From Arctopsyche grandis (lineage: Eukaryota; Arthropoda; Insecta; Trichoptera; Hydropsychidae): a stretch of DNA of 64,000 bases. Below the pieces are notes generated by a model that did no database searches, was not told where the DNA came from, and was given only the letters and a program-made list of their open reading frames with translations. The stretch spans positions 29,116,290-29,180,289 of the forward strand of contig NC_135356.1 in NCBI RefSeq assembly GCF_051622035.1, written 5' to 3'. A program made the translations under genes and the position numbers. Of this stretch, positions 355 through 57,266 are shown in pieces. Numbering within the stretch: position 1 is the stretch's first letter; the number at the start of each line of letters is the position of its first letter.

Positions 355-560
355 TGATCATTGGCGCCGTCCACACACACGATATCTACTACCGATATTT
401 CCGGGGACGCGACAATTGGTGCAAGGCCAAAATGTTCAACGACAAAATGTACCCGAAAATTAGTGCACTGACAAAATGTACCCGCGACAAAATGTACCCG
501 CGACAAAATGTACCCGCGACAAAATGTTCAAAAATGTTCAAAATGTTCAAAAATCCTAAA
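355..560 (+). repeat. Left terminal inverted repeat with CGACAAAATGTACCCG motifs
   Basis: The outer ~85 bp is the inverted end shared with the right terminus. From about 439 it passes into four or five short direct copies of CGACAAAATGTACCCG, decaying into ATGTTCAAA repeats by 550. Short subterminal repeats of this kind often serve as transposase binding sites in DNA transposons; that role is inferred. Confidence 0.65.
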
Positions 561-3500
561 TTATCCTATTTTAATGGCAAAAGTAACTTTTTATTGTATT
601 ATATTTATCGATGTATATGGTACTTTTTATCGTATAGATCGCGGATGTTATTAAATTATTATAAATTAAAGGTGTTCTCAACCGTACCAACATATTTAAA
701 TTGAACAATTACATTTTAAGCTAATGTCATTGTGACTCATTGAATATCATTTTAAGATGTCATTGAATTAGTATAAATGACAGGGGTTCTCAACCGTATC
801 CAATATTTACGTATTTAAATTGAAAAAAAAAACTTTCCGAGCGTATGAACCGCAGATTACATTGCATTAGTTTATATGGCAGGGCTTCTCAACCGTCTCC
901 AAAATTTTCTTTATTTCAAATGAATAATTTACTTTTTATCGTACACATCGCGGGCGTTATTAAATTAGTATAAATGACAGGGGTTCTCAACCGTATCCAA
1001 TATTTACGTATTTAAATTGAAAAAAAAAAACTTTCCGAGCGTATGAACCGCAGATTACATTGCATTAGTTTATATGGCAGGGCTTCTCAACCGTCTCCAA
1101 AATTTACTTTATTTCAAATGAATAATTTACTTTTTATCGTACACATCGCGGGCGTTATTAAATTAGTATAAATGACAGGGGTTCTCAACCGTATCCAATA
1201 TTTACGTATTTAAATTGAAAAAAAAAACTTTCCGAGCGTATGAACTGCAGATTACATTGCATTAGTTTATATGGCAGGGCTTCTCAACCGTTCTCAAAAT
1301 TTACTTTATTTCAAATGAATAATTTACTTTTTATCGTACACATCGCGGGCGTTATTAAATTAGTATAAATGACAGGGGTTCTCAACCGTATCCAATATTT
1401 ACGTATTTAAATTGAAAAAAAAAACTTTCCGAGCGTATGAACTGCAGATTACATTGCATTAGTTTATATGGCAGGGCTTCTCAACCGTTCTCAAAATTTA
1501 CTTTATTTCAAATGAATAATTTACTTTTTATCGTACACATCGCGGGCGTTATTAAATTAGTATAAATGACAGGGGTTCTCAACCGTATCCAATATTTACG
1601 TATTTAAATTGAAAAAAAAAAACTTTCCGAGCGTATGAACTGCAGATTACATTGCATTAGTTTATATGGCAGGGCTTCTCAACCGTCTCCAAAATTTACT
1701 TTATTTCAAATGAATAATTTACTTTTTATCGTACACATCGCGGGCGTTATTAAATTAGTATAAATGACAGGGGTTCTCAACCGTATCCAATATTTACGTA
1801 TTTAAATTGAAAAAAAAAACTTTCCGAGCGTATGAACTGCAGATTACATTGCATTAGTTTATATGGCAGGGCTTCTCAACCGTCTCCAAAATTTACTTTA
1901 TTTCAAATGAATAATTTACTTTTTATCGTACACATCGCGGGCGTTATTAAATTAGTATAAATGACAGGGGTTCTCAACCGTATCCAATATTTACGTATTT
2001 AAATTGAAAAAAAAAACTTTCCGAGCGTATGAACTGCAGATTACATTGCATTAGTTTATATGGCAGGGCTTCTCAACCGTTCTCAAAATTTACTTTATTT
2101 CAAATGAATAATTTACTTTTTATCGTACACATCGCGGGCGTTATTAAATTAGTATAAATGACAGGGGTTCTCAACCGTATCCAATATTTACGTATTTAAA
2201 TTGAAAAAAAAAACTTTCCGAGCGTATGAACTGCAGATTACATTGCATTAGTTTATATGGCAAGGCTTCTCAACCGTTCTCAAAATTTACTTTATTTCAA
2301 ATGAATAATTTACTTTTTATCGTACACATCGCGGGCGTTATTAAATTAGTATAAATGACAGGGGTTCTCAACCGTATCCAATATTTACGTATTTAAATTG
2401 AAAAAAAAAACTTTCCGAGCGTATGAACTGCAGATTACATTGCATTAGTTTATATGGCAGGGCTTCTCAACCGTCTCCAAAATTTACTTTATTTCAAATG
2501 AATAATTTACTTTTTATCGTACACATCGCGGGCGTTATTAAATTAGTATAAATGACAGGGGTTCTCAACCGTATCCAATATTTACGTATTTAAATTGAAA
2601 AAAAAAACTTTCCGAGCGTATGAACCGCAGATTACATTGCATTAGTTTATATGGCAGGGCTTCTCAACCGTCTCCAAAATTTACTTTATTTCAAATGAAT
2701 AATTTACTTTTTATCGTACACATCGCGGGCGTTATTAAATTAGTATAAATGACAGGGGTTCTCAACCGTATCCAATATTTACGTATTTAAATTGAAAAAA
2801 AAAACTTTCCGAGCGTATGAACTGCAGATTACATTGCATTAGTTTATATGGCAGGGCTTCTCAACCGTCTCCAAAATTTACTTTATTTCAAATGAATAAT
2901 TTACTTTTTATCGTACACATCGCGGGCGTTATTAAATTAGTATAAATGACAGGGGTTCTCAACCGTATCCAATATTTACGTATTTAAATTGAAAAAAAAA
3001 ACTTTCCGAGCGTATGAACTGCAGATTACATTGCATTAGTTTATATGGCAGGGCTTCTCAACCGTTCTCAAAATTTACTTTATTTCAAATGAATAATTTA
3101 CTTTTTATCGTACACATCGCGGGCGTTATTAAATTAGTATAAATGACAGGGGTTCTCAACCGTATCCAATATTTACGTATTTAAATTGAAAAAAAAAACT
3201 TTCCGAGCGTATGAACTGCAGATTACATTGCATTAGTTTATATGGCAGGGCTTCTCAACCGTTCTCAAAATTTACTTTATTTCAAATGAATAATTTACTT
3301 TTTATCGTACACATCGCGGGCGTTATTAAATTAGTATAAATGACAGGGGTTCTCAACCGTATCCAATATTTACGTATTTAAATTGAAAAAAAAAAACTTT
3401 CCGAGCGTATGAACTGCAGATTACATTGCATTAGTTTATATGGCAGGGCTTCTCAACCGTCTCCAAAATTTACTTTATTTCAAATGAATAATTTACTTTT

Positions 3501-4800
3501 TATCGTACACATCGCGGGCGTTATTAAATTAGTATAAATGACAGGGGTTCTCAACCGTATCCAATATTTACGTATTTAAATTGAAAAAAAAAACTTTCCG
3601 AGCGTATGAACCGCAGATTACATTGCATTAGTTTATATGGCAGGGCTTCTCAACCGTCTCCAAAATTTACTTTATTTCAAATGAATAATTTACTTTTTAT
3701 CGTACACATCGCGGGCGTTATTAAATTAGTATAAATGACAGGGGTTCTCAACCGTATCCAATATTTACGTATTTAAATTGAAAAAAAAAACTTTCCGAGC
3801 GTATGAACCGCAGATTACATTGCATTAGTTTATATGGCAGGGCTTCTCAACCGTCTCCAAAATTTACTTTATTTCAAATGAATAATTTACTTTTTATCGT
3901 ACACATCGCGGGCGTTATTAAATTAGTATAAATGACAGGGGTTCTCAACCGTATCCAATATTTACGTATTTAAATTGAAAAAAAAAACTTTCCGAGCGTA
4001 TGAACTGCAGATTACATTGCATTAGTTTATATGGCAGGGCTTCTCAACCGTTCTCAAAATTTACTTTATTTCAAATGAATAATTTACTTTTTATCGTACA
4101 CATCGCGGGCGTTATTAAATTAGTATAAATGACAGGGGTTCTCAACCGTATCCAATATTTACGTATTTAAATTGAAAAAAAAAAACTTTCCGAGCGTATG
4201 AACTGCAGATTACATTGCATTAGTTTATATGGCAGGGCTTCTCAACCGTCTCCAAAATTTACTTTATTTCAAATGAATAATTTACTTTTTATCGTACACA
4301 TCGCGGGCGTTATTAAATTAGTATAAATGACAGGGGTTCTCAACCGTATCCAATATTTACGTATTTAAATTGAAAAAAAAAACTTTCCGAGCGTATGAAC
4401 TGCAGATTACATTGCATTAGTTTATATGGCAGGGCTTCTCAACCGTCTCCAAAATTTTCTTTATTTCAAATGAATAATTTACTTTTTATCGTACACATCG
4501 CGGGCGTTATTAAATTAGTATAAATGACAGGGGTTCTCAACCGTATCCAATATTTACGTATTTAAATTGAAAAAAAAAACTTTCCGAGCGTATGAACCGC
4601 AGATTACATTGCATTAGTTTATATGGCAGGGCTTCTCAACCGTCTCCAAAATTTTCTTTATTTCAAATGAATAATTTACTTTTTATCGTACACATCGCGG
4701 GCGTTATTAAATTAGTATAAATGACAGGGGTTCTCAACCGTCTCCAAAATTTTCTTTATTTCAAATGAATAATTTAGTTTTTAAGCGTATGTCATTGAAT
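561..4800 (+). repeat. Left arm satellite array, ~197 bp unit, about 20 copies
   Basis: Units repeat every 197-198 bp, the difference being the length of an internal A-run. Each unit is itself a decayed dimer: two half-units carry GGCAGGGCTTCTCAACCGTC and GACAGGGGTTCTCAACCGTA about 100 bp apart. Copies at 561-780 are diverged, as at an array edge; those from 781 to 4700 are nearly identical. Two variable sites (AACCGCAG/AACTGCAG and CCGTCTCC/CCGTTCTC) alternate with a period of four to five units (790-990 bp), indicating higher-order block duplication. Confidence 0.95.
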
Positions 4801-4805
4801 TAGTT

Positions 4806-4890
4806 TAACACCGAAGACCTCTGTGAGGGACAGTACATATAAGATAATTATAAATTTTAGAGTTAAGTAATTTTAAAATTAGCTTGATAG
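4806..4890 (+). mobile_element. 3' scrap of a CR1/Jockey-like LINE
   Basis: About 85 bp including GGGACAGTACATATAA and TTTTAGAGTTAAGTAATT matches the 3' end of the LINE fragment at 53820-54420, where the same bases encode and follow its last residues. It sits just inside the left satellite array, so it is either an insertion into the foldback element or captured sequence. Confidence 0.55.
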
Positions 4891-5312
4891 CTAAGATAAT
4901 ATATAAATAAATAAACGTTGATCGCCACGTTTTATTTTGATAAAACAGTTCCCAGCCAGCGGTCACGTGTACTTCGAGTTTTAACATTGAATGTGACCTT
5001 TACGGCGTCTCTAAATCAAATTCACATAATTTTTTTCCAAAATTTTGTTTAAAAATGCAATTATTTTATTTCTTCTGCAAATAAGTCTTCTAGTGTACAT
5101 TCGCAAGCTATATGTAAAATGAAAGTTTTTTTTAAACTTAATATTTCATTATACAATTATATGGCAAGAATATCAAATATTAATTAAGATAAATTTAATG
5201 TATTATTTTACAATCAAGTCTCGAATTACGACTATTAGGATTTATGATGGAGAGATTTTACTTAGTGTTTAACAAAAAACAAATGTATGAATCGGACATT
5301 GTATTGGAGAAA

Positions 5313-5424
5313 AAAGGAGGTATGTAAAAAAGGCAGACATTAGAAATTTACAATAGTCAACCTTTTTTTTTTGGGCAACGGGTTCCTTAATCCCCAGCTA
5401 AAATTATTTTTACATACCTCCTTT
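5313..5424. repeat. Small hairpin, 17-18 bp arms
   Basis: AAAGGAGGTATGTAAAAA at 5313 is mirrored by TTTTACATACCTCCTTT ending at 5424, with an ~80 bp loop. It lies in the loop of the foldback element; no function is evident. Confidence 0.5.
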
Positions 5425-5912
5425 ATGTTTCACATTAATATTGCATCATTTACAACTAACTATTATTATTGCATACAAAATTTCATTTTGACATGTAAAA
5501 GACACACGATTGATGTAAAATGCAATTAAAATGTAAATGTAAAAAAAATCACGCGCGTTGAATAGAGATGGCAAAACAATAATATATTTTGAAATTAGTT
5601 CTATGATTGACAGATGAATTGTCTACACAAATGGACGAAAATATGTAAAAAGACAAATGGGTTATAAAATTTTACTACCCTCATGTTAGAGGCTATTGAA
5701 TGCATTTTTTTCTTTGCGTAAAACCCTAGGACAATAGGCAAATGGTGGGTTCAAAATCTCTTCAATGTCCTCTTCAACTTCGGTTTGTAGCATTAGAATA
5801 ATAATTTTTAGCTATTCACAGTTGATAAGCTCGATCACATTTATTATAGAAAAATATACATATATCTATGTAATAAATTTATAATTTCTCTGGTATTATA
5901 AAGTTCTAATAA

Positions 5913-6194
5913 GGTTATCAAGTTAACAATACTGACATATGGAATGTTCGAGACCGAATAATACATAATTATGGAAAAACAGATAACGAAGTGGAAGGCT
6001 GCCATATGAAAGTTGGCTATACAATTGGAGCCCAATTTCCAAACCTCTGGAAATTTTTGAAAGCCCTTCAAGGTCTCCAAGCCGAGACCGAGAAGTTAGT
6101 AGAAGAACTAAACTCCGGAGTTATGGGAATACAACAGCGGCCGAAATACGTACAATTGGCAGAGGATAAAAAACGTCACAGCCAATTGGGCTAA
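5913..6194 (+). pseudogene. MULE transposase C-terminal relic
   Basis: An open frame of about 93 codons, closed by TAA at 6192-6194 and with no initiation codon of its own. Read from about 5940, it contains IWNVRDRIIHNYGKTDNEVE, then EGCH, GAQFPNLWKFLKALQGLQAE and RPKYVQL. This is the known order of the C-terminal part of animal MULE transposases: a W-N-V segment, an RTNN-x-VEG-x-H motif, an H/F-P-N-x-W-K-F helix, a Q-x-x-T/E segment, then a K-Y-x-x-L tail. Here the usual RTNN is KTDN. The DDE catalytic core and any FLYWCH or other zinc finger upstream are missing: the 1.1 kb before it within the loop is AT-rich with stops. It is therefore a dead fragment, but it assigns the surrounding inverted-repeat element to the Mutator-like superfamily. 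Confidence 0.75.
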
Positions 6195-7215
6195 TCGACA
6201 AAGTTTGGAGACATACCTAAGAGGAATATCGTATAATTTTTAAACACGTTAGTTTTTATTCTAAAATATTATTTCGTTAAAATTTTGTATATAAAATAAT
6301 ATATAACATTCATTTTCAGGTGCGTACACAGGATATTTTTCTCGCAGCAGTCAAGTCAAGGGCGAATAGGGTTCTAGTTTATATATCTAGTCACATACTT
6401 ACGTATATTATATTTAGTTATTAATTTTAAATCCTTGTATTTTAAAACTAAACTAAACTTATTTAATATGAAAAATATTAAATTCCTTTTAATGTACATA
6501 TGTATGTATATATCTACATTATTTAAATACTGTCATACCATTTTTTAATCTTACTAATTATGGATTTTTTAATATTATATACAATATTTTTATTTCCTTT
6601 TAGTACATTTTTGTATCTTTTTTTTATAAAAGCTTCCTCTTATTATCGATATTCCATCAAATGCACAACGTTTTGCTTATTTATTTCTTATTATTTAAGA
6701 ATGTATAAATTAAGTCATAATATACTCAAATTTTTTAAATGACATCAATATTTTTTATGCAGCGGTAGCTGTTGATAAGCAATTATATTATAACTAAATA
6801 TGTCACTGATGTTAGGTATTTTAAATTTTTAATTTAACAATTATTGTTTTAATCTGAAAATTGATAAATTTTGTGTTTTAATGTTTTAAATTTAATGACA
6901 TGTGCATTTCAACAGTTCGAACTATGATGATTCCATTATTTGAGAGCAGATCACTTTTAATCTTACAATTAATGATGTATTATTTTAATTGAATATTGTT
7001 TATTTATTAAAATAAATATTATTACAAAATTAAGTAATAAATTTAAAAATGATTTTAAAAATACATGTCAAATAATGATCTTTTTTCTTTATCTATTTTG
7101 TATGCTCATATTATGTTTAAATGATTTTTGTTTTGTTTTCAACTGAATACAACTTATTTCATATGAAGAAAAGATTTGTAATTATGGCTTTTATTTATTT
7201 ATTTTCATTATAAGA
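6195..7215. other. AT-rich loop remainder, nothing recognised
   Basis: Very AT-rich sequence between the transposase relic and the right satellite array. The short open frames are low-complexity and show no family resemblance. Confidence 0.5.
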
Positions 7216-9850
7216 TTTTATATTACGGTTGAGAAGCCCTGCCATATAAACTAATGCAATGTAATCCGCAGTTCATACGCTCAGAAAGTTTTTTTTTTCA
7301 ATTTAAATAAGAAAATATTGGATACGGTTGAGAACCCCTGACATTTATACTAATTTAATAACGCCCGCGATGTGTACGATAAAAAGTAAATTATTCATTT
7401 GAAATAAAGTAAATTTTGGAGACGGTTGAGAAGCCCTGCCATATAAACTAATGCAATGTAATCTGGAGTTCATACGCTCGGAAAGTTTTTTTTTTCAATT
7501 TAAATACGTAAATATTGGATACGGTTGAGAGCCCCTGTCATTTATACTAATTTAATAACGCCCGCGATGTGTACGATAAAAAGTAAATTATTCATTTGAA
7601 ATAAAGTAAATTTTGGAGACGGTTGAGAAGCCCTGCCATATAAACTAATGCAATGTAATCTGGAGTTCATACGCTCGGAAAGTTTTTTTTTTCAATTTAA
7701 ATACGTAAATATTGGATACGGTTGAGAACCCCTGTCATTTATACTAATTTAATAACGCCCGCGATGTGTACGATAAAAAGTAAATTATTCATTTGAAATA
7801 AAGAAAATTTTGGAGACGGTTGAGAAGCCCTGCCATATAAACTAATGCAATGTAATCTGCAGTTCATACGCTCAGAAAGTTTTTTTTTTCAATTTAAATA
7901 CGTAAATATTGGATACGGTTGAGAACCCCTGTCATTTATACTAATTTAATAACGCCCGCGATGTGTACGATAAAAAGTAAATTATTCATTTGAAATAAAG
8001 AACATTTTGGAGACGGTTGAGAAGCCCTGCCATATAAACTAATGCAATGTAATTTGGAGTTCATACGCTCGGAAAGTTTTTTTTTTCAATTTAAATACGT
8101 AAATATTGGATACGGTTGAGAACCCCTGTCATTTATACTAATTTAATAACGCCCGCGATGTGTACGATAAAAAGTAAATTATTCATTTGAAATAAAGAAA
8201 ATTTTGGAGACGGTTGAGAAGCCCTGCCATATAAACTAATGCAATGTAATCTGCAGTTCATACGCTCAGAAAGTTTTTTTTTTCAATTTAAATACGTAAA
8301 TATTGGATACGGTTGAGAACCCCTGTCATTTATACTAATTTAATAACGCCCGCGATGTGTACGATAAAAAGTAAATTATTCATTTGAAATAAAGAACATT
8401 TTGGAGACGGTTGAGAAGCCCTGCCATATAAACTAATGCAATGTAATTTGGAGTTCATACGCTCGGAAAGTTTTTTTTTTCAATTTAAATACGTAAATAT
8501 TGGATACGGTTGAGAACCCCTGTCATTTATACTAATTTAATAACGCCCGCGATGTGTACGATAAAAAGTAAATTATTCATTTGAAATAAAGAAAATTTTG
8601 GAGACGGTTGAGAAGCCCTGCCATATAAACTAATGCAATGTAATCTGCAGTTCATACGCTCAGAAAGTTTTTTTTTTCAATTTAAATACGTAAATATTGG
8701 ATACGGTTGAGAACCCCTGTCATTTATACTAATTTAATAACGCCCGCGATGTGTACGATAAAAAGTAAATTATTCATTTGAAATAAAGAACATTTTGGAG
8801 ACGGTTGAGAAGCCCTGCCATATAAACTAATGCAATGTAATTTGGAGTTCATACGCTCGGAAAGTTTTTTTTTTCAATTTAAATACGTAAATATTGGATA
8901 CGGTTGAGAACCCCTGTCATTTATACTAATTTAATAACGCCCGCGATGTGTACGATAAAAAGTAAATTATTCATTTGAAATAAAGAAAATTTTGGAGACG
9001 ATTGAGAAGCCCTGCCATATAAACTAATGCAATGTAATCTGCAGTTCATACGCTCAGAAAGTTTTTTTTTTCAATTTAAATACGTAAATATTGGATACGG
9101 TTGAGAACCCCTGTCATTTATACTAATTTAATAACGCCCGCGATGTGTACGATAAAAAGTAAATTATTCATTTGAAATAAAGAAAATTTTGGAGACGGTT
9201 GAGAAGCCCTGCCATATAAACTAATGCAATGTAATCTGCAGTTCATACGCTCAGAAAGTTTTTTTTTTCAATTTAAATACGTAAATATTGGATACGGTTG
9301 AGAACCCCTGTCATTTATACTAATTTAATAACGCCCGCGATGTGTACGATAAAAAGTAAATTATTCATTTGAAATAAAGAACATTTTGGAGACGGTTGAG
9401 AAGCCCTGCCATATAAACTAATGCAATGTAATTTGGAGTTCATACGCTCGGAAAGTTTTTTTTTTCAATTTAAATACGTAAATATTGGATACGGTTGAGA
9501 ACCCCTGTCATTTATACTAATTTAATAACGCCCGCGATGTGTACGATAAAAAGTAAATTATTCATTTGAAATAAAGAAAATTTTGGAGACGATTGAGAAG
9601 CCCTGCCATATAAACTAATGCAATGTAATCTGCAGTTCATACGCTCAGAAAGTTTTTTTTTTCAATTTAAATACGTAAATATTGGATACGGTTGAGAACC
9701 CCTGTCATTTATACTAATTTAATAACGCCCGCGATGTGTACGATAAAAAGTAAATTATTCATTTGAAATAAAGAACATTTTGGAGACGGTTGAGAAGCCC
9801 TGCCATATAAACTAATGCAATGTAATCTGCAGTTCACACGCTCAGAAAGC
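7216..9850 (-). repeat. Right arm satellite array, ~197 bp unit, about 14 copies
   Basis: The same unit as in the left arm, in reverse orientation. From about 7800 two unit types alternate. One has CTGCAGTTCATACGCTCAGA with GAAAATTTTGG; the other has TTTGGAGTTCATACGCTCGG with GAACATTTTGG. This gives a ~394 bp higher-order repeat, broken once near 9200 where two units of the first type are adjacent. The left arm does not carry this alternation, so the two arms have been homogenised separately. Confidence 0.95.
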
Positions 9851-9996
9851 ATTTGAACATTTTGGACTTGCACCAATTGTCGTGTAACCGATATTTCCAT
9901 ATCCAGTTCCCAAATAGCAACCGCAGGTTGCAATATGGCAACTGGATATGGAAATATCGGTAGTAGACATCGTGTGTGTGGACGGCGCCATTGATC
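9851..9996 (-). repeat. Right terminal inverted repeat with an internal hairpin
   Basis: The outer ~45 bp and the inner GTGCAAGTCCAAAATG segment match the left end. Between them is an extra palindrome at about 9888-9962: CCGATATTTCCATATCCAGT is mirrored by ACTGGATATGGAAATATCGG around a ~29 bp spacer. The left end has no such insertion. It looks like a snap-back duplication of part of the terminal repeat. Confidence 0.7.
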
Positions 9997-10191
9997 GATT
10001 CTGAGTTCGAATCAGTCAAAATCTCAAGTTCGAATTTTAGCATGGTCACACAACGCCATCTATTGTTACTACGTACATACATAGATAAAGCAAAAATCAA
10101 ATATGTATAATAATAAAATCTATTTATAAAAAAAAAAAGAATACAACATATTGAATGAAAAAATCAGTTCACCCTGTATTAGGCTAGAATA

Positions 10192-10546: not shown

Positions 10547-10923
10547 GTGATAAATGATTGAGTAAAAATTCACGTGAAGTTTAAATATGATAATATAATA
10601 TAGAGTAATCACCGAACCAGTTATCTAGGGTAGAGATCTAGGATTTGTTTGAATTAGCTGAAGTGTGTACTCACATCCATTATTGACATTTTGGCTGCGA
10701 TCTGATGGAGGAGTAATTTGCCACGACCTCTGTCCGCCAATCTCTCACGAGCTCTCCAAGCTTATCCACTTGCACATGCGCAGTTGCCATTTAGTTAAGC
10801 GTGTATCGACCCACACTCTCCGGCGGTCTTGACAGTCCGTTTGTCGGCCAGTACCATATTGAAAAAGTTCACTAACGATTCCGAGAGTAGGTAGGGGAAA
10901 CAATTTACAATGGCTTGTATTGA

Positions 10924-11030
10924 ACCCTTTAATTGCTGACGTCTTTTCTGTTGAAAGTCCACCATGCTGAAAATTTCACCCTCATTTCCAATTAGAATTA
11001 TTTGGAAGTCCAATAGATAGCAGGCATAAA
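10924..11030 (+). repeat. Fragment of piggyBac-type MITE family B
   Basis: From AACCCTTTAATTGCTGACGT onward the sequence matches the left end of 24458-24993 through TTTTCTGTTGAAAGTCC and the following ~70 bp. The TTAA is not preserved and the right part is missing, so it is a truncated old copy. Confidence 0.6.
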
Positions 11031-11381
11031 AACCCTAGTGTTCCTACGCCAGGCGTTCTCAATCAAGATGCCGCCGTGACGTAGTTGTAGTCATTTTTGC
11101 GCCGAAAATAGCTTCCACGTTGGAACAGGTGTCCTTCCAGGAACACGTACTAAAGGTAAACCGTGGACTGACCTGGACGTGTCGTAGGAGTTCTCCTGTT
11201 TCTATAATCTCGTCGTCGAAGCGTAGCCAGCTGTACGAGCGGGGGGGGGGGAGAAAATTGGCAATGTTGCCAACTGAAGGGGCGATGAGGAGGACGTCGT
11301 ATTACAGTATAAAATATAAATAATCAGTATAATAACTAAAACATTGGCATAAAATATAAACAGTCAGTATTAAAATACCAC

Positions 11382-12730: not shown

Positions 12731-17240
<4,510 letters not shown>

Positions 17241-18848
17241 CAGGACTTTGGTCTTATACGAGTGACAGATAGCAACGCAGCCAGGATATATATAATATAT
17301 ACAGTGTTGCCAGCATGCTTCGTTCGGGGCTGCCACTTTAGATAATATTTTTAAATAAATATAATTTGGTAAACGGATTATGTATTTCGCACATTGTGAT
17401 CGTGCACAAGATAATCGCTGCCACGAAAATCATTAATACGGAAAATCTACCACTTGAGTCTTCATTAGTTCGCGTGGATGGAATTTTGGAATTTTCGGGT
17501 GTCAGTTGTTCCATGATCGCGATTTTAGTAACGTGTGCGAGATCACTTATCAACAAACCATATAATTTGACTCAGTTAAAAGAAAACAATTGTACTAAAA
17601 ATAAATTCTAGCTATTTTTAGTAAAAACTCTAATTTACAAAAATATTTTTGAATGCAGACGAAAAAATTTCTCATTTATTCTTCAAACTTCTTAATTCTG
17701 AATTCTTTCACTATTAGAATATAGAAAAATGGGTAAACGGACTACTAGTCATATGTGAACCAGTCACAGGACAACCGGTCGCTCTAGATCGGTCACACGT
17801 GATCACCCGTCACACTAAAACTGGTCACACGTGATCACCCGTCACACTAAAACTGGTCACACCCTAAAATTAGTCACGAGAAAACTGGTCACACCCTAAA
17901 ATCGGTCAACCAATTTTCTCGTGACTGATTTTAGGGTGTGACTAGTTTTCTCGTTACCAGTATTAGGGTGTGACCAGTTTTCCCTTCAGTCTACACTGTA
18001 GGGTAATGTTGAATTTTTACCAGATAAACTCCACCCCTGATCTCTATTCTCTGGAACTTCTATGCATTACTTCAAAGAATGGGATCCATTCAAATATGAA
18101 GTTATTAAATAAAATAAATTTGTTGGTGCTGTATTTGATCCGCACGCCGTCGCAATTTATTTCAAATACCTTTGAAATATATTTATATTTAATATTTTAG
18201 TATGAAAAAAAATGATAAAAACTACCTACCTACCTACATATAAAAAATATAAAACACCAATAGAAAAATTAATTAATTAATTAAATAAATTTTCAATAGA
18301 TGGCGCTAAATGTTTAGAGACTAATTTGCCTAGAGGAAACATTGGTAGCAAATAGTATATATATGTATATAGAAGATTTTTGTTGATCTGTTATTATGTT
18401 CGTATTGTATTCATATGTTTTGATGGCAGTGATTTAACTGTGACGTACATATGTCGAATCAAAAAGAATATTATACTACGGCGTGCCTTATTTTACACAG
18501 ACATATAGAATTGCGATATTATATGTATATGATGATTTTTCTAATAGTTCTGATAGATTTTTCGCATATTAAAAATAAATCTAAAAAATCTTTTTTTAGT
18601 TCGTCATAGAAGCCGGAATTATTTTTCCCAGGGCCCGGGATTTCTCTCGGCGGCCCTGTTTACAAGTGTTAAATTTTCTAATGACATTTTAGTATGTTTT
18701 ATTAACCAGATTTTATATATAATTACTGATCATTTTGGTATAAAAATACTGATCGCTTAGTTAAATAAATAGTGATCAAAATATATTCATTCCATTCGAA
18801 ATATCATTCCATCTTGATGTAAACTGCATAATTTTATTTTTATTACAG
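17241..18848. promoter_or_regulatory. Shared upstream region of PTGES2 and elgi
   Basis: The two genes are transcribed away from each other from this interval, so it must hold both promoters unless distal exons exist. A TTACAG acceptor-like site at 18848 suggests that elgi has a spliced 5' untranslated exon. Positions 17360-17560 resemble a badly decayed family C MITE, and 17734-17986 is a hairpin MITE. No TATA box or initiator could be assigned with confidence. Confidence 0.4.
17734..17986. mobile_element. Hairpin MITE, GGTAANCGGACTA family (copy 2)
   Basis: GGTAAACGGACTACTAGTCA onward is nearly identical to 109-230. An internal block (GTGATCACCCGTCACACTAA) is duplicated, and the fold-back half is shorter, so the terminal repeat on the right is missing. 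It lies between the divergent PTGES2 and elgi genes. Confidence 0.75.
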
Positions 18849-22000: not shown

Positions 22001-25000
22001 AGTCAATTTAGATTCATTAAGTACGCACTTGAAAGATTGCGAATACAATCCAAAAAGACCGATACCCTGTGAGCAGGGCTGCGGCATGATCATTCCCAAG
22101 GATGAGTTGAAAGAGCACAACTGCATACGAGAGCTCCGCTCGATCATACAATCTCAGCAGACTAATTTTAATGCGTACCAGCAGCAAATAAGCGAGTTGA
22201 AATTTATCATGAACGAATATAAACGAGAGCTCACACTTTTAAAGGTAAATTTTAAACGTGAGCAATTCATTGTTTCACCATTCTATATAATACATATATG
22301 TATCTTGGCGACCAATTTTCTTATATTATTGCCGTATTTTGTTGAATGCTTTTATTTGTTTCAAATGGGTGACCGTGAAAAAGTCGAAAATGTTCGTTTT
22401 CCATGCATACATATGAAAAACGGTTAGTATATATATATACCAGTGGCGTGCGGTAAAATTCTTTCTCTCCCCCCGTCGTACATCCTCACTTAATTTGCGC
22501 GGGCAGGACACAACAGGAACGAGAGGAACAGGCTTTTCCTCCTGTATCCCGCGCGCGCACATTACACAAGGCCGTATGACAAAAGAGAGATAATTTCACC
22601 ACATGCCACTCATATATATTATATAAACATAGTACCGTTTACCATGCACTCTTTTTTTTGATCTTTCGACTTAAGATCTTTCGATTTTCGATCTTTGCCT
22701 TCCGATATTTGCTTTTTCGACCTTTTCACTTTTGGTGCCGTGAGGTAGACTAGAATGAAGGCTTTTGGCATCAAACTTTCAAACATAATCATAATCTTAT
22801 ATTATATATATATAAATATGTAAGAATCATATCACATTGTACGATGAGCTCACAATCGATTATCTGTGAAGAAGTAGCACTAAAATCTTGTATTTTTTTG
22901 TGAATAGCTTTTATTATTCAGTTTTATTTTCATTTGAAGGTGATGTTGTAAATTTTTAAACGATTTCCACTACATTTGAATAGAAGAAGCCATTTTTGAT
23001 ATAAAATTTTTTATATACACGATTATAACTTAATATTAATACAATGGTTATAAAAGTTTCAAAGTTTGCAGCTCAGCGTTTGTTAAAACCAGGGCTGTGG
23101 AATCCGAGTAATAAGAAATCAACCGACTCCGACTTGTTTTTAATAGTATTACAGTATTTTTTTTTTTAGTTAATTAATACCAGGAAGGCCTAACAGGTAA
23201 CCCCAATGTGCCTTCCTAGCCAGAAACATTGTACATTTGATACAAGTATTAATATACAAAGTAAATACATATCAATTAACATCCACAGAGAAATGTACCG
23301 TCAAATTTGTACATTTGCAGCATTTTATACAATTCAGTGAAATTCGATATTGGTGATAACTTGAGATTTGCGAGAAAATGGGTAAGGTTGCCGATTTGTT
23401 GGAACCGTTTCAATGAAAATCAGATAAATTGGCCAACTCTGATAGGAAACTATCGACCTGGAGTCACAAATCCAAGGTCTGGCCAGCAGAAACGAGTGGG
23501 ATTTGAACCTGTGACCACTTTGTTCAAAGCATTATATGCTAGTCTATTCTGCTGGTTTGAGTCTCCAATTATATCGAAGTAAAACGACTAATAAGTTGAA
23601 ATTTAATAATTTCTTTATTAAAATCATCAATTAAATTACATTTAAAATAAAATCGTTTAATTGCACATGTTTTTGTGTTCTGGGCAAAACCGACATTTCT
23701 TCTGTCTCATACTTTTTTTTTTTTTATTAAATTGATTTGTTTCTGTATGAAATTACACTGTGAATGTATTTACTTTTTATTTAATCATTACCAATAAATT
23801 CAACAAATTGGGTTACATGTCAATTTTTAATGGCATAAAAGTCAATCTTACCAAAATTGAGTCGGAGTCCTAGCATAAGGTAAAAGTCTAAATTTGTTGC
23901 TAAATTTGAAATTGACTCTACGCCCAGGTTATAACAAATTTGTACTATTTTCAACATTCATTATTATAATCACTAAGCCTTTAATTTGATAAGCATTTTA
24001 TATGCCAAGAAATCATTCTACAATTATTCGTCGTTTCTTTTTATTAGAAATGCTAAACAAGTTCAAGGAAGTAGAGAATTGTCATTTCAGCTCTGAAATA
24101 TTGAAATTCCTTTTTAATTTAAGCTCTTCAATAAGGTGGGGCGGAAACAATTAGTCAATTAGTATCTTGAAAATAAAAAGTAAGTATTCATTAGCTGAAT
24201 ATGTATAACTTAATGCCAGTATTTTTTTTTAAATAATGTCTGGTGTTATCTACTTGACATTTAAGCAAACCGCAACACGATTCATTGTCTTCCTCGACAA
24301 AATTACTAAACTTCTGGAATGGCTGGGTTCCAAAAGGATGGAGCACGACTATATAAATGAACTAGGCATAAAGTTCAATAAAAGTTATGCTCATCAACCC
24401 AAAACTATATAAGAGTTGAACATCCAAGCGGAAATCCAACAAATTCTAATGTAATGCTTAACCCTTTGAGTGCTGACGTCTTTTCTGTTGAAAGTCCGCC
24501 ACGCTGAAAATTTCGCCAACATTTCCAACTAGAATTATTTAGAAATCCAATAGAAAGCAAGTATAAAAATTGTAGCTAATCCAAACAAACCCTAGATAAT
24601 CACCGCCGACGATTTCGAGTTTTGTAAAGGTGTGTTTAGACTCTCTAATATATCTTGCAACAATATAAAATAAACAAAACAAGTCTATTAATGAATGTAA
24701 TTTTCCAAAACTAGTTCCATCTTCTTCATCGTTGTTAAAATGTAATGCTCACAATCTAAAAGACTCAGCAGTTAGTGATTTCCATCGAGAAATTCTGCTA
24801 TGGTTATAAATTCAGAAATTCCGGTGTAAACCAGTCTTTTTAAACATTGACACGGACTACACAACCCATTTTCAATGCTACCTGGAAAGGCTCAGCGGAT
24901 AGTATTCTTGTTTATTTTTTAAATGCTCCAAAAACAACGCCTATCGACATATTTCAAGATCGTGGACTTGTTGGTCAGCATTCAAAGGGTTAAGAAAGTG

Positions 25001-28000
25001 ATTGATTTGAAATCTGAGTGAAAATTACCGGTAGATATAGAGATATACCATGCATTTTGATTTTATTTGGTTAATGAACGTTTACTTTTGATTTGAAGTG
25101 TTTATTCTCAAGATTCTACGTACGAGTATAATTTCTTCCGCTCCACTCTGCATTTTATGTATATTTAGAAAATCCTTTGTGCCCCGTCATTTCGGGATTG
25201 GGTATTTTTGAGTAACGAAATGAATATATGTATGACATGTTTAGGATTTCATGAGAGCGATGAGAATATCGAATCCGGCGATGCGCGCTATAGCAGACCA
25301 AATGGAACGTGACGAGGTGGTAAGATGGAGCGGAACCCTCGCACCGGCGAGAGTCACCCGTTGGGGAGGCATGATATCCACGCCGGATGAAAATTTACAG
25401 GTTTGCCATATGTTTTGCACACGTTGACGATGTACTCGTGACAAATTGCCATGTTGAAATGCAACTGCGTAGCGCTGCGTTAATTCGTATTAACGTCTTG
25501 TTGTCGTTTCTTTGAATATTTTGCCGTGCGTTCTCACTATATTTTATGTAAAATGTTGTTATTTGCCGTGTGCTTTGTCGTTCCCTGCTCTCGCCTAATT
25601 TTGCAATGACGTTGTCTTCAGAATATAATTAAACGTTCGCTCTCCGAGTCCGGGTGTCCTCCGCACATCATCGACGAGCTCATGGAGAACTGCCACGAAA
25701 GAAGATGGCCGCCTGGATTGTCGTCTCTAGAGACGAGACAGAATAATAGACGGTAATGGTGTTTCTTCAATACAAATTACGTTTTTTTTTTTTACTATTT
25801 ATTATATGTAGAATTGTATCTATGTACATACATAATTAGGTTTGTTACTACATAATTCCCCTTTTCGGTCAGTAACTTCAATCATTTTTCTGTAATATGT
25901 CTATCAAAATGGTCAAGATGCTTGTAATCAGTTAACTGTTTGCCCGCGGCCGTCTTCTATGGAAGTTTTGCGCGACAAGTCTGTAGCGCGGCTGTCTTCC
26001 ATAGAATTTCTGAACTTTGCATGGGATTTTGGGCCTTATATGCGCCTATTTCAACTGTTTTAAGGTTCAAAGTTGGTTGAATATATTACTGAGAGTTGAA
26101 TGCCATCTATTCAATTTGCTTAAAATTCATATATACCAGTCAAAATTTGTTTTTTGTGGAACCATACTGAAACCTCGTTTATGTGACGTCACGTCTGTTG
26201 AACAATGGCGACGATACGTCTCAATTGTATGAAGAATGATTATTTGACAATTAATCCAAAAATACGAGATATATTATGTATTTTATTTTTAATAATAATA
26301 CTTATGTGTTAATTAACATATCTGGTTACTTGAGTAAATATTAAAATCTGTATTTAAGGTCGAAAACTCGATTGCCAAAAATCGATCGCGAAAACGGTGC
26401 CGCCGCGTACAGGGCTTGTTCGCTATATTTATTGCCGCGGGCACAGGGTTAATAGAGTAAATGGTCTGTAATTAATTCAAAAGAAGAATACTGTCATGAA
26501 CAGTTCGATGATGTGTCTTTGAGATAATAATTGGAAAACACATATGTACGATTGAACTTTCCTGTAAAATAAATGCATGAAATATTCTTAGAGAAAGTAT
26601 TGACACTATGGTGGCCGCTGACTCATATTTGTATCATGTTGGGTGCACAACGCTTACTGGCCGCTGATACATATATGATTCACGACCGCGCGAATATATT
26701 TTTCAGTCCGCTGATATATATTTGTATCATAGGCCACAAACGATTGACGCAAACGTGATACAAAAATATATCAGCGGACTGAAACAGTTGGCGCAGTCGT
26801 AAATCATATATGTACCAACGGCCACTGAGCGTTGTGCACCCAGCATGATACAAATATGAGTCAGCGGTCACTATTGTGTTAAAAAAAACTGTACGGAAAT
26901 ACGAATATTAGTCTTGGTCTAGTAGAAGAGTGGAGTTTAGACCATACCGAGATACCAGAATCAGAAAATTCAGCATATATGATGTCTCACAATCTAAAAT
27001 ATTGCCCAAAAAATTTGTTGCCTTTATTATATGCACTATAAAGTTATATGGCTTATACCGTGTTCCAAGCTCTCAGTTAAAAATATGTGTTTTAAGTTAA
27101 AATAATGCAAAATCTGCGAGGTTAATTATTGTAATTAGCTATAAAAATCATTAAACATCGAATATTAATGGACTCTCCGTGAAAATAATTATTTCTGTTG
27201 ATATTGATCAATGTTTTTATTTCGCAATGACATCATTCGAATCATAGAGGTTTTGATGAGGAATACATAAAATTTTAAGACCCCGGCATTCAGTATATTT
27301 GGAAAAATAGATTAAAATATAAGTCCTCATCACTCGCCATCTATCACAGTGCGGCAATTGTTGAAGGCAATGGTTGAATAAAAATGAACTTAAATAAATT
27401 TTCACAATGTTATAGAAGTGTGCAAATTAGTTTTACTATTTTTAATTTGATATATTCCCATTAAATGTTATAAATTGTCTTACAAAGTATCCCAAAATAC
27501 TTTATTTTGAAAATAATGTCTACGTTACGGTCAGAGTGTATCACCAGTTTTTTTTTAATCAATTCAATTTTGATTAGTTTAAACACGTTTCATCTATTCC
27601 ACGTAGTTATTTCATACAACATAGTGGATTTACAATCTGACTGGTCAGAATCAGTCAATACGTATTCCGTATTCTGCTTTTTTTATCCACTTTTCGAATA
27701 TGATACACATAACCGAGCCTTTCAATGCGACCTGATTTTGATGTATTTTATTCACACTACATACTGACTGCTTTTCGTTAAAATGTAACTTGACAGGTAT
27801 CTAATTTGAGTCGGAACGTCACATTTTTGTTTTGAACACGTTCTTTAGAGTTATTGTAATATAAAACTCATTCCATAACTCGTAATATTAACGCATTGTT
27901 GATTCTTAACAATAGATATAGCGAACAAGCCCTGTACGCGGCGGCACCTTTTACGCGATCGATTTTTGGCAATTGAGTTTTCGACCTTAAATACAGATTT

Positions 28001-28823
28001 TAATATTTACTCAAGTAACCAGATATGTTAATTAACACAAAGTATTATTTTAAGCAATAAAATATATAATATATCTCGTAGTTTTGGCTTAATTGTCAAA
28101 TAATCATTCTTCATACAATTGAGACGTATCGTCGTCATTGTTCAACAGACGTGACGTCACATAAACGAGGTTTCAGTATGGTCCCACAAAAAACTCATTT
28201 TGACTGGTATTTATGCATTTTAAGCAAATTGAATAGATGACATTCAACTGTCAGTAATATATTCAACCAATTTTGAACCTTAAAACAGTTGAAATAGGCG
28301 CATATAAGGCTCAAAATCCCGTGCAAAGTTCAGAAATTCTATGGAAGACAGCCGCGCTACAGACTTGTCGCGCAAAGCTTCCATAGAAGACGGCCGCGGG
28401 CAAACGGTTAAAGCATTTTGTAAAAAAATCTCAATCGTCAAAGCTTATATAATGTATAGTAATAGGCGAGCACTATATTTTGTCTGTAAAAACATAATCC
28501 ACTTGTTAATTTGTATTGGAATATGTGATAGAATATATATTACAACTGGTAATACACTGACAGTAACTATGGTTACATATTTATTATTATATTTGACTCA
28601 ATTTCAGTATGTCTTTGGACTTATATACAACTGTGTTAATGTAATATGTGTTTTTTTTTAATTTCGAATGTCTGTGCATTTCAGTTTGTACGAGAATTAT
28701 ATTTGCAAACGAGTTCCCGGCAAGCAAGCCGTTCTGGTGCTGCATTGCGACAATACGCACATAGGAGAAAATATGATGGTGGAGCCGGGTCTGGTGATGA
28801 TATTTGCTCACGGCATTGAATGA
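19002..28823 (+). CDS. elgi: E3 ubiquitin ligase RNF41/NRDP1 (elgi), 6 coding exons
   Basis: Exons: 19002-19091, 20297-20439, 21956-22244, 25245-25400, 25622-25752, 28685-28823. All introns are GT-AG and phases agree, giving 315 aa (human RNF41 is 317). An N-terminal RING of the unusual form with a final aspartate is complete: C18, C21, C34, H36, C39, C42, C53, D56. A zinc-binding segment follows (LFGCPLVVNLDSLSTHLKDC, EQGCGMIIPKDELKEHNC), then a coiled coil (SQQTNFNAYQQQISELKF) and the C-terminal substrate-binding domain (VTRWGGMIST, KRSLSESGCP, RVPGKQAV, EPGLVMIFAHGIE). In mammals the protein ubiquitinates ErbB3, BRUCE and others; Drosophila elgi affects oocyte maturation. The start is set by MGFEVNRF, matching the family start. 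An upstream in-frame ATG at 18924 lies in probable 5' UTR. The introns contain most of the local MITEs. Confidence 0.96.
19092..20296 (+). other. elgi intron 1, no recognisable element
   Basis: 1.2 kb of AT-rich sequence between coding exons 1 and 2. It contains a short run of G and C homopolymers near 19157 but no repeat shared with the rest of the window. Confidence 0.5.
22441..22611. mobile_element. hAT-like MITE with CAGTGGCGTG ends
   Basis: The left end CAGTGGCGTGCGGTAAAATT and the complement of the right end (GAGTGGCATGTGGTGAAATT) agree at most positions. The flanks are AT repeats (ATATATAC/ATATATAT), so an 8-bp duplication is plausible but not decisive. Part of the body recurs inverted at 50990-51080. 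Confidence 0.6.
22630..22745 (+). repeat. Dispersed GATCTTTCG repeat
   Basis: CCGTTTACCATGCAC followed by several GATCTTTCGA/GATCTTTGCC words. It is shared with 51065-51185 and, more loosely, with 41925-41990. In both the 22.4 and 51.0 kb copies it is adjacent to the CAGTGGCGTG MITE body, so the two may belong to one composite repeat. Confidence 0.55.
23188..23566 (-). mobile_element. tRNA-derived SINE, copy 1
   Basis: On the minus strand it has CCAGCAGAATAGACTAGCAT, then the B-box-like GGTTCAAATCCC, then CTGCTGGCCAGACC, a ~200 bp body and the tail GCACATTGGGGT...GGCCTTCCT. The same order is present at 62831-63265. Pol III-type internal promoter boxes and a conserved tail identify a SINE family. 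It lies in elgi intron 3, antisense. Confidence 0.7.
24458..24993 (+). mobile_element. piggyBac-type MITE family B, complete copy
   Basis: A 536 bp element bounded by TTAA at both ends. It begins TTAACCCTTTGAGTGCTGAC and ends GTCAGCATTCAAAGGGTTAA, inverted. TTAA duplication is diagnostic of piggyBac transposition. A second full copy in opposite orientation lies at 36054-36616; fragments lie at 1-108 and 10924-11030. It is non-coding. Confidence 0.85.
25932..26452 (+). mobile_element. piggyBac-type MITE family A, copy 1
   Basis: 521 bp with TTAA at 25932 and at 26449. The ends read TTAACTGTTTGCCCGCGGC and, inverted, TTAACCCTGTGCCCGCGGC. It is non-coding. It lies in elgi intron 5, facing an inverted copy at 27906-28411. 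Confidence 0.85.
26601..26880. mobile_element. Large hairpin MITE, ~130 bp arms
   Basis: GTGGCCGCTGACTCATATTT at the left is mirrored near 26870, and the inverted match continues through GGGTGCACAACGC to a centre near 26745 (CAGTCCGCTGATATAT). The arms are roughly 85% identical by eye. It may be an independent MITE inserted between the two inverted family A elements. Confidence 0.7.
27795..27903 (-). repeat. Dispersed repeat D, partial copy
   Basis: On the minus strand AATGCGTTAATA...AACGTGTTCAAAACAAAAAT matches the ends of copies at 43957-44250 and 62141-62425. It is immediately followed by the family A MITE. Confidence 0.6.
27906..28411 (-). mobile_element. piggyBac-type MITE family A, copy 2 (inverted)
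   Basis: Bounded by TTAA at 27906 and 28408. It is nearly identical to 25932-26452 in reverse orientation over ~480 bp. About 13 bp of its left terminal repeat (CCCTGTGCCCGCG) has been deleted, so the end reads TTAACAATAGATATAGCG. With copy 1 it could fold the elgi intron 5 transcript into a long hairpin. Confidence 0.85.
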
Positions 28824-29667: not shown

Positions 29668-32600
29668 TTAACACATAGGATACCACGGGCTATTGCTAAA
29701 GAAACAGGCGTGCGGCGGGGAGAATTTGCGCTAATCTTTGCATAAAACTGTAACTGTTTAAAATGTCATATCTCTTTTACCAGTAAACGTATAAAAGTGA
29801 AATTTGAAATGCAGTTTCGTATGGACTATCTTAAAATTTCGTAATTGTAAAATCAGTAAAAGTCAAACTGTGAGTCGCGTACTAATAAAATAAATAATTA
29901 AAATGTGTATAAATATGGCAAATATACATATTTTATAAATAAACAAAAAAAATCTAGCAGCAGTGAACCTTTGTGTAACAAAAACAACAAATGTCGTTAT
30001 TTGAAACCTATAAATACAATGCAGTCAGATGCAATTCCATATGCGCTTTGGAATTGCCGACATCCAACAAGGTTAATCCTCTTTCGTCATAAATAACAAT
30101 ATCAGTGAGAGAATTTTAGGACATCGGCAAAATCTAAGAGGAACATAAAACAGATGTGAGAAAAAAAAAAGGTCCCCCCAAAATGTGTTTATTACCTAGT
30201 GCAGTGGTTAGTAACCAGGAGTCAAGTGTAGGCAATAAATTACCGAAGAAATATAAAAGGGCACATAGTAAACAATGGTGATATTTTCTTCAGAACATGA
30301 ATATAAAAAAAATCAAACATATTTATTCAACTAAAAACACAAAAAAAGCACTCACCCAGCAAACTGCACCCCTTATGTAGATATTCACATTTGATTGATT
30401 GGTAGATATTTACACAATATTTATTTAAAAGTTTCCTTTATATTATAATATATTATCGATAAACTCACTTTATGTATATTTTTATTATTTACACACACAC
30501 ACGTTATTTAAACACAATATGAAATTCGTACACTAATGAAATTTTATATCTAATATTTTTTTTTTGTATGGTAGTCTTGATAACACTTTCCAACATGTAG
30601 TGGAATTTTACATTGTTTACACATAAAAGCACTCAGTTTACGAATTTTTAGTTTTGCACACACTCGACAATTACGTCTCACTAATTTATTCGTTTTTTCA
30701 TTAGTTATTTTCACTAATTCATGATCTTTTATGAAACCACGTAGTCTTTCGTTCGGATCAATGCTGGGAGTCCTCGTCATGACAGAAGTTGAAGGTATAT
30801 TGGAATGTGTGTCTGATGTACCTGGTGTATTGGAAATGTTACTCTGAAGCCATGCCTCTGCGACTTTCAGCATAAACTCTTGGAATTTCCAATTCGTCCC
30901 ATTCAACTTTTTGTGGATATGATAAGCGTTCAAAATTCCGCAATGCATCAGATACATTGCGGCTTTCTTCGTCCACTTGATGGTTTTCCGTGAAACGGGG
31001 TTGTACGATAGGTACTGATCCGCGAGATCGACTCCACCCATAAATTTATTATAGTCCATGATGCTGATTGGCTTCTTGATGGGTTGATTTGTTTTCCTGT
31101 CGATTTTGCCAGTTTCTACAATTTGCGCCTGATGGATGGTTGAAATAATTCTGACGTCTCGTTTTTTGTTTGTCTTCCAAATTTGAATCAATATATCCCC
31201 CTTTCTTCGATGTATTGATTCATGAATTTGTAAGCGGGCGTTTTTCAAAATTTGCGGTAAGCCACGATTTTTTCTAATAGTTCCGCATATTCTTGTTTTA
31301 GCTCCCAATAAATTGGTAGCTAAATTAACGCTATTGTAATAATTATCAGCGTAGACATTGTACCATTTATTTAAGTACGGAGATAACAAATCGGTGATAG
31401 TGTTATTCAAAGAAGTACCTACACCCGAATACAATTTGAAATAACAAATATAGCCACTTTTTGCTTCACATATCATCCTATTTAGAATCCCGTACTTAAC
31501 GATCTTCATAGGGTTATACACCTTGCATTTGAGGCGCCCCCTCCACGGTATCATGCCTTCGTCCAAAGACAGGTTTTGCGTCGGTGTGTACGTCTCTTGA
31601 AACTTTTTCGTGAAGTAGTCTATTATGTTTTGAATTTTAATTAGGCGATTTGGACTGCCGGTCGGAATCTTCTCATTGTCAGAAAAGTGGAGATACCTTA
31701 AAATCTGCTGAAATCTATTTCTGCTCATCGTCTTTCGAAAATATGGAGTTTCGATAAGAGGATTGGTGCTCCAATAGTCGCTGATGGAATTTTTTCTGAC
31801 AATAGCCATTATCAGAACTAATCCGAACCATTTTTTTAGCTCGGGAACGAGAACATCTCTCCATTTTCGCGAGTGTGTGGAAGTTGGATATTTGATATTA
31901 TTTTTGGCATAATATCGGTTTGTCTCCTCGGCTATAATACCAAATAAATCATCTCCAATGAAGAGTGAAGTCACGTCTCCCACGTTAGATGGATTATCAG
32001 GAAAAATGTTCAATCCTGGTAGTCCTTCAAAGCTGTTGAGATTTCTAGGAGGATCAAATTCGGACCAATCCAATGTCACATCAGGGATACCTTCTTCTGA
32101 AGAATTTTCAGATTCTGACTGGTTGACACGTGGTTCTGAAGTTTCTGACTCAGAATCTCCACTTTCTTGGACATAAGCCTCATCGATGTCTTCTTCACCT
32201 TCGCTAGGAGGTTGAGAAAGTTGGTCTTCGAAAGTCTCGTCAAAAAATGAATCTTCTCTCTCAGCCATTTTATAACGATAACACAAAACAGAAAACACGA
32301 AATTTCACAATAAAATCAGAGTTTTATAAAATAGTCACAAAAACACAAAATCCATTTATAACAATAACACAACAGAAAACACGAAATTTCACAATATAAT
32401 CCAAAAGAGTTTCACAAAAACACAAAATCCAAAAAATAGAATCCAAAAAGCATCGAAAATCAAAATAGTCAAAGATATCAAATAGAACACGAAATCTAAA
32501 AAATAACGCGTATATTTATCGATAAACGTTTCCTCGTCACGGTCAGAAAAGGACTGAAATGATCTCGACCTTTCTGAAAATATAGCACCCTTATTTTTTT

Positions 32601-35371: not shown

Positions 35372-57266
<21,895 letters not shown>

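Follow-up and report, generated by a model that had tools for sequence, protein, structure and literature searches.

The foldback element Tetris of Drosophila virilis carries ~220-bp tandem repeats in its inverted arms, in kilobase-sized arrays whose unit number varies by copy, and is flanked by 8-10 bp duplications (PMC4079207; this and the other published accounts are cited from parts of their text). Its authors suggest that it belongs to the Mutator superfamily; its copies lack a transposase, and in the part cited the authors found none, reported three structurally complete copies with arms of at most 1,735 bp, and noted contigs with arrays of the unit alone (PMC4079207). Tm1 of root-knot nematodes encodes a FLYWCH and Mutator-like element (MULE) transposase of Phantom type (496 amino acids), makes mostly 9-bp duplications, has variable tandem repeats of ~14 bp in its inverted arms and differing 7-bp tips, and has non-coding derivatives as well as some like miniature inverted-repeat transposable elements (PMC3169594). 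Here we describe a new family that joins published features of Tetris and Tm1, both compared by description. It is represented in a 64,000-bp stretch of the genome of the caddisfly Arctopsyche grandis (contig NC_135356.1, positions 29,116,290 to 29,180,289; hereafter the window, numbered from its first base). We regard it as very probable that window positions 403-9889 hold a deletion copy, itself non-autonomous, from a family of cut-and-paste transposons with foldback architecture that belongs to the Mutator superfamily (FLYWCH and MULE transposase, Phantom layout).

The family resembles Tetris in this architecture, in the kilobase size and variable unit number of its arrays and in its 8-10 bp duplications, with a repeat unit of 197 bp against ~220 bp. 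Unlike Tetris, it has complete transposase frames between the satellite arms, 15 complete copies could be examined, its arms reach 4 kb and more, and no unit array remote from an element end occurs among the matches listed. Tetris itself is named once, in the reference list, in the cited part of a 2026 D. virilis study (PMC12910113). The likeness to Tm1 covers the transposase (487 amino acids here), the predominance of 9-bp duplications, the variable arm repeats, the differing tips and the short non-coding derivatives; the ~14-bp repeats of Tm1 are like a 16-bp minisatellite found here, whereas satellite-sized arrays are not described in the part of that account cited (PMC3169594). Foldback (FB) of Drosophila melanogaster, again compared by description, also has inverted arms of tandem repeats (PMC3169594). 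Galileo shares long repetitive inverted arms, variable ~210-bp tandem repeats in one subfamily and chimeric copies, but it has a P-superfamily transposase and 7-bp duplications, whereas the present family has a MULE transposase and mostly 9-bp duplications (PMC3573991). Rehavkus is likewise Mutator-like, with 9-bp duplications and a minisatellite adjoining the terminal repeat, but has a PHD finger where we find FLYWCH and no PHD match (PMC6446971). No other description of a Phantom-layout transposase between satellite-sized arms was found in the titles and abstract openings of the openly licensed literature, a scope that makes this weak evidence of novelty.

Borders, ends and target site

All genome searches were performed on the window's own assembly (475,669,232 bp in 189 contigs), for which matches were listed in part. 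Window positions 355-554 gave 40 scored matches among 879 candidates. Excluding the window's own match, these start at query positions 35-49, equivalent to window positions 389-403, and the ten best start at 402-403 and extend through the rest of the query with 99-100% identity. In the examined copies the common sequence begins with GGGGACG at one side and GGTTACA at the other, followed by CGACAATTGGTGCAAG, and the element therefore extends from 403 to 9889 (9,487 bp), borders that are shared by the genome copies. Its first bases are GGGGACGCGACAATTGG and its last bases, read on the reverse strand, are GGTTACACGACAATTGG. Each end is 23 bp long and combines a 16-bp core common to both with a 7-bp tip of its own: end A (403-425, plus strand) is GGGGACG plus the core, and end B (9867-9889, minus strand) is GGTTACA plus the core and reads GGTTACACGACAATTGGTGCAAG. 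A subterminal minisatellite with a 16-bp unit, GACAAAATGTACCCGC, and shorter relatives occupies 446-560 on the plus strand (Tandem Repeats Finder: 470-527 with period 16, 521-554 with period 10). The 9-bp target-site duplication GATATTTCC is present in perfect form on both flanks, at 394-402 and 9890-9898.

A sequence-only reading of this DNA had placed inverted termini marked by GGCGCC at 355 and 9996. These termini belong to a palindromic target repeat outside the element, whose left part lies at 356-402 and right part at 9899-9996 (145 bp once rejoined, 47 + 98). The 47-bp inverted match between 356-402 and 9950-9996 (45 of 47 bases identical) represents the two arms of this palindrome, which the insertion split. 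No convincing target duplication was found at 355 and 9996, in keeping with the true borders at 403 and 9889. When window positions 9890-10049 were searched against the genome, at least 85 matches were obtained, most of them ending at query positions 99-108, and many formed plus/minus pairs ~35 bp apart, i.e. uninterrupted palindromes. Two matches (98% and 97% identity) span the full query with flank; both lie ~17 kb upstream of the element, near each other and in opposite orientation. The first of them, L063, aligns to the joined window flanks minus one duplication over 264 bases with five mismatches and one 2-bp gap. The junction is free of gaps and mismatches, and GATATTTCC is there in a single copy. 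L063 is an empty site at a paralogous locus.

Another palindromic repeat, ending in GGTAAACGGACTACTAG or close to it, lies immediately left of the target repeat at 109-347; a relative occurs at 17732-17981, and L063 has a further one, in inverted orientation, flanked by two GGCGCC repeats. Pieces of a dispersed repeat family at 61-108, 24458-24974, 36087-36616 and 10923-11032 flank the element region on either outer side, with the right piece inverted.

A pattern covering both tips matched the genome exactly at 518 sites (259 forward and 259 reverse), and a reversed-pattern control gave 0. Pairing was counted among the first 100 of these sites, with convergent neighbours less than 15 kb apart taken as pairs. 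Fifty-eight sites make 29 convergent pairs of 237 to 11,648 bp, each joining an A end to a B end (17 AB, 12 BA; p = 1.4e-9 under random pairing). Copies were examined in 20 regions of 10 kb and as four short copies, and were called complete if both exact ends fell in the stretch. Fifteen complete copies resulted, including the window; the other six regions held four one-ended or cut copies (L043, L046, L051, L056) and two distant relatives (L057, L058). Target-site duplications of 8-11 bp characterize the Mutator superfamily, and exact duplications of 8 bp (two copies), 9 bp (eight) or 10 bp (two) flank 12 of the 15 complete copies, alongside the empty site. Long inverted arms of direct repeats in variable number, the mark of foldback elements, were found in the 15 complete copies.

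The four short derivatives (L059-L062, 237-938 bp) retain the ends and a minisatellite, which was matched in all four. Units of 197 bp or fragments of them occur in L061 and L062, with a 28-bp match only in L060 and none in L059, and a 9-bp duplication flanks L060 and L061. L060 is 322 bp long and lacks a complete 197-bp unit, yet its 9-bp duplication is perfect; thus, the satellite arrays are probably unneeded for movement as such.

Transposase, satellite arms and loop orientation

The loop between the arms spans 4753-7224 (plus strand) and is AT-rich, with 26% GC over 4820-7224. It holds a 93-amino-acid open frame at 5913-6191 (plus strand), which a genome search identified as a C-terminal remnant of a MULE transposase. 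The length of this frame is unremarkable, for 40 of 300 dinucleotide-shuffled versions of the loop contain one as long, and comparison with Pfam, NCBIfam and PDB gave no convincing relative (best Pfam match HEPN_RES_NTD1 at 0.024, below the family cut-off; PDB matches at E 0.3-1.1). The identification as a transposase thus comes from the genome search. No relative of the frame was found in viral and prokaryote contigs. A MULE motif pattern selected ten viral contigs, which proved unrelated to the frame (best E 0.16) and were set aside, and a second motif pattern had no match.

In the genome, tblastn with the 93-residue frame gave 96 matches. Fifteen are 92% identical to it, and eight of these lie in open frames of 487-494 amino acids (L022, L024, L025, L026, L028, L029, L031, L033) that differ pairwise by 0-14 nucleotides in 1,440-1,461. 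Counted from the first methionine, seven of the eight encode 487 amino acids and one 480. Some copies carry two labels: L055 is L028, and the transposase frames of L053 and L055 were compared as L025 and L028. Among the eight near-identical frames, L055 was the one scanned for Pfam domains. Its frame (4832-6295, minus strand) contains a MULE domain (PF10551, 1.9e-14, 54.3 bits against a Pfam cut-off of 27.6) and an N-terminal FLYWCH domain (PF04500, 7.7e-10, 39.2 bits against 23.6). At E <= 1, Pfam gave no PHD finger in L055 or L057 and no THAP domain of P-type transposases, listing MULE and FLYWCH. The transposase includes the motifs LMDGTFK (194), VMMDFERA (262) and DNEVEGFH (401), whose acidic residues we take to be the putative catalytic triad. 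FLYWCH together with MULE is the layout described for Phantom (PMC3169594), and the L055 transposase has this layout.

The window loop aligns to that of L055 in two blocks (99.0% and 99.1% identical) with 2,233 bp of L055 between them, so that the transposase gene has lost ~2.23 kb relative to L055 at the junction 5933/5934. This loss takes most of the gene, and the window copy is thus a deletion derivative. The enzyme encoded by the intact copies probably moves the family. More distant transposase relatives were found in L057 (493 amino acids, MULE and FLYWCH) and, at a greater distance, in L058 (a 514-amino-acid open frame), with no 197-bp arrays in either region. A 122-bp unit with three repeats lies near L057, and L058 has an 82-bp inverted pair.

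Arm A is a 197-bp satellite array of 20.2 units with 99% matches (762-4752, plus strand), and arm B an inverted array of 13.3 units with 97% matches (7225-9849, minus strand), both delimited by Tandem Repeats Finder; over a stretch of 1,792 bases their complementarity reaches 98%. Each unit is built as a doublet from two ~98-bp halves, which share a nearly unbroken ~45-bp block centred on TTCTCAACCGT and are more diverged in the remainder. The motif TTCTCAACCGT is retained in a degenerate outer unit of the array. The arm repeats of FB are far shorter than 197 bp. Visual inspection raised the idea that the unit resembles the CENP-B box, but this was rejected, as positions essential for that box are not kept.

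Among the 15 complete copies, arm A has 1.5 to 20.3 units and arm B 2.5 to 13.3. The arrays make up 16-70% of the element, with the window copy at the 70% extreme and the 14 others at 16-46%. L052, L053 and L054 have merely 1.5-3.5 units per arm, and in L046, an 11,561-bp copy, one arm has ~24 + 5 units with a 1.7-kb interruption between them. Arm lengths are correlated within copies (Spearman 0.63, p = 0.012; 0.55, p = 0.044 when the window copy is omitted). Between L053 and L055 the transposase frames are identical and the loops show only 13 substitutions in 4,633 aligned bases, but the unit numbers are 2.5/2.5 and 5.5/5.5; array length thus changes quickly. Unit variants alternate in arm B of the window copy, and the arm labels of its units are separated in 0 of 5000 permutations. 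Over 110 units, the mean difference is 1.3% within an arm, 2.2% between the arms of one copy and 1.9-2.0% between copies. The lower value within arms suggests that units change within their own arm rather than being copied from one arm to the other.

Relative to end A, the loop is reversed in five of 19 oriented copies: L041, L042, L044 and L048 among the 15 complete ones, and L051 among the four partial ones. Matching 9-bp duplications flank L042, L044 and L048, as expected for inversion inside one element, and none flanks L041. We infer that exchange between the inverted arms explains the loop inversion.

Alternatives to a foldback Mutator family

A 32-bp core of the 197-bp unit has 853 exact matches in the genome (452 + 401; control 0), of which the first 100 were analysed for location. 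They form 17 clusters, each with an element end within 8 kb, and for 89 of the 100 an end in the correct orientation lies no more than 6 kb away, as against 0.4% of random positions; no array remote from an element end was seen among these 100 matches. In principle an assembly artefact or ordinary satellite DNA could have produced an inverted pair of arrays by chance, and tandem units with 97-99% matches are indeed what satellites show, while the location evidence comes from 100 of the 853 unit places. Given the ends beside the listed clusters, and the recurrence of the same architecture at 15 complete loci, 12 of them with duplications, we consider this explanation very improbable. Still less credible is an element with GGCGCC termini at 355-9996. 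The pairing of 45 of 47 bases as an inverted repeat speaks for it, but the GGCGCC repeat occurs at dozens of places, often as an uninterrupted palindrome, and the proposal is refuted by the direct empty site and by the family copies, which are alike from 403 inward and not from 356. A rolling-circle carrier of the Helentron type known from the Pacific oyster would also spread satellite-like arrays (PMC7492417), but the inverted ends, the 8-10 bp duplications and the MULE/FLYWCH transposase make it equally far-fetched; no search aimed at Rep/helicase was made.

A less remote alternative concerns the role of the units. By analogy with Galileo, whose repeats are reported to contain secondary binding sites (PMC3573991), the satellite units might be functional, providing extra binding sites that raise transposition, rather than being passengers. 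The ~45-bp block around TTCTCAACCGT, kept between the halves and in the degenerate outer unit, would fit such a role, but L060, without a complete unit, has its perfect duplication, and three copies manage with 1.5-3.5 units per arm. On balance we find functional units unlikely, though well worth bearing in mind. We prefer to see the arrays within a foldback Mutator family as follows. The transposase from complete copies would recognise an A end and a B end, perhaps along with the adjoining minisatellite, excise the element and reinsert it elsewhere, with the satellite arms carried as passengers and the arrays probably dispensable for movement as such. The arms may grow and shrink through unequal exchange or slippage within each arm, and the loop may now and then be inverted when the two arms pair.

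Several observations weigh against this reading or parts of it. Of the 100 end sites listed, 42 lie outside convergent pairs. An exact duplication is missing from three of the 15 complete copies (L039, with seven of nine bases matching, and L041 and L053, with none) and from two of the four short copies (L059 and L062). The Phantom assignment follows from domain layout and not from a tree, and current mobility of the family is putative, the evidence coming from a single assembly. Six of the 100 unit matches listed belong to an 11.6-kb copy and lie 6.7-7.7 kb from their own end in it, and five others lack a nearby exact end in the correct orientation, with just one on the opposite side. The many units of the window copy dominate the unit averages, and when copies are taken singly, the arms are slightly closer to each other than to other copies in eight of the 13 for which values exist, so that exchange between arms may occur. 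The inverted loops of L041, L042, L044 and L048 are of one type (loopA, with 89-90% identity to the window), that of L051 is of another (99%), so that there may have been just two independent inversions.

The sequence-only reading had also described two arrays of a ~197-bp unit in opposite orientation and a loop with a MULE transposase relic, and had read the whole as a foldback Mutator element with satellite arms; each of these holds, the relic being 92% identical to intact genome copies and the family having its ends at other loci, duplications and complete transposase frames elsewhere. The checks that it suggested turned up common ends in other copies (the true ends at 518 sites, not GGCGCC), 8-10 bp duplications (exact in 12 of 15 complete copies) and a full transposase in some loops (eight copies, 480-487 amino acids). 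Its statement that satellite makes up most of the mobile unit is true of the window copy (70%) and not of the 14 other complete copies. The seeding of satellite arrays around the genome finds no support among the 100 unit matches listed, all 17 clusters having an element end within 8 kb, and rearrangement through arm pairing gains indirect support from the loops flipped in five of 19 oriented copies.

Neighbouring features and significance

Rfam and tRNA scans of the window gave no matches. A 584-amino-acid stop-to-stop open frame at 30550-32304 (minus strand) has a piggyBac-type transposase domain (DDE_Tnp_1_7, 5.4e-79), and no inverted pair flanked by TTAA on each side turned up around it in a simple scan. 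An element of 2,480 bp at 25932-28411 begins with TTAAC from either end and has inverted repeats of 503 bp (95% identity); judging by the TTAA, it may be a non-autonomous, piggyBac-like element. A 952-bp inverted-repeat element at 57587-58538 has 367-bp arms (96%) enclosing a 116-bp tandem doublet. Gene exons were found at 54557-55009 (minus strand, forkhead domain, 1.8e-36) and 16405-16818 (minus strand, glutaredoxin/GST-like domain, 5e-11), and a perfect AT dinucleotide run of 78 units at 49166-49321.

Tetris is the case that links foldback elements with satellite DNA, but without a known transposase. The present family unites satellite arms, non-equivalent ends, complete Phantom-layout transposase frames, an empty site and arms of variable length, and array growth inside a mobile element and loop flipping by arm pairing are therefore directly testable. 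We propose tentatively, with somewhat more doubt than conviction, that the 197-bp unit may represent a class of satellite spread by a transposase and confined to an autonomous foldback Mutator family, in which array length outpaces substitution in the surrounding sequence and the transposase loop is repeatedly turned around, relative to two non-equivalent ends, when the inverted arms pair. If this is true, such flips could change the expression or the competence of the element itself.

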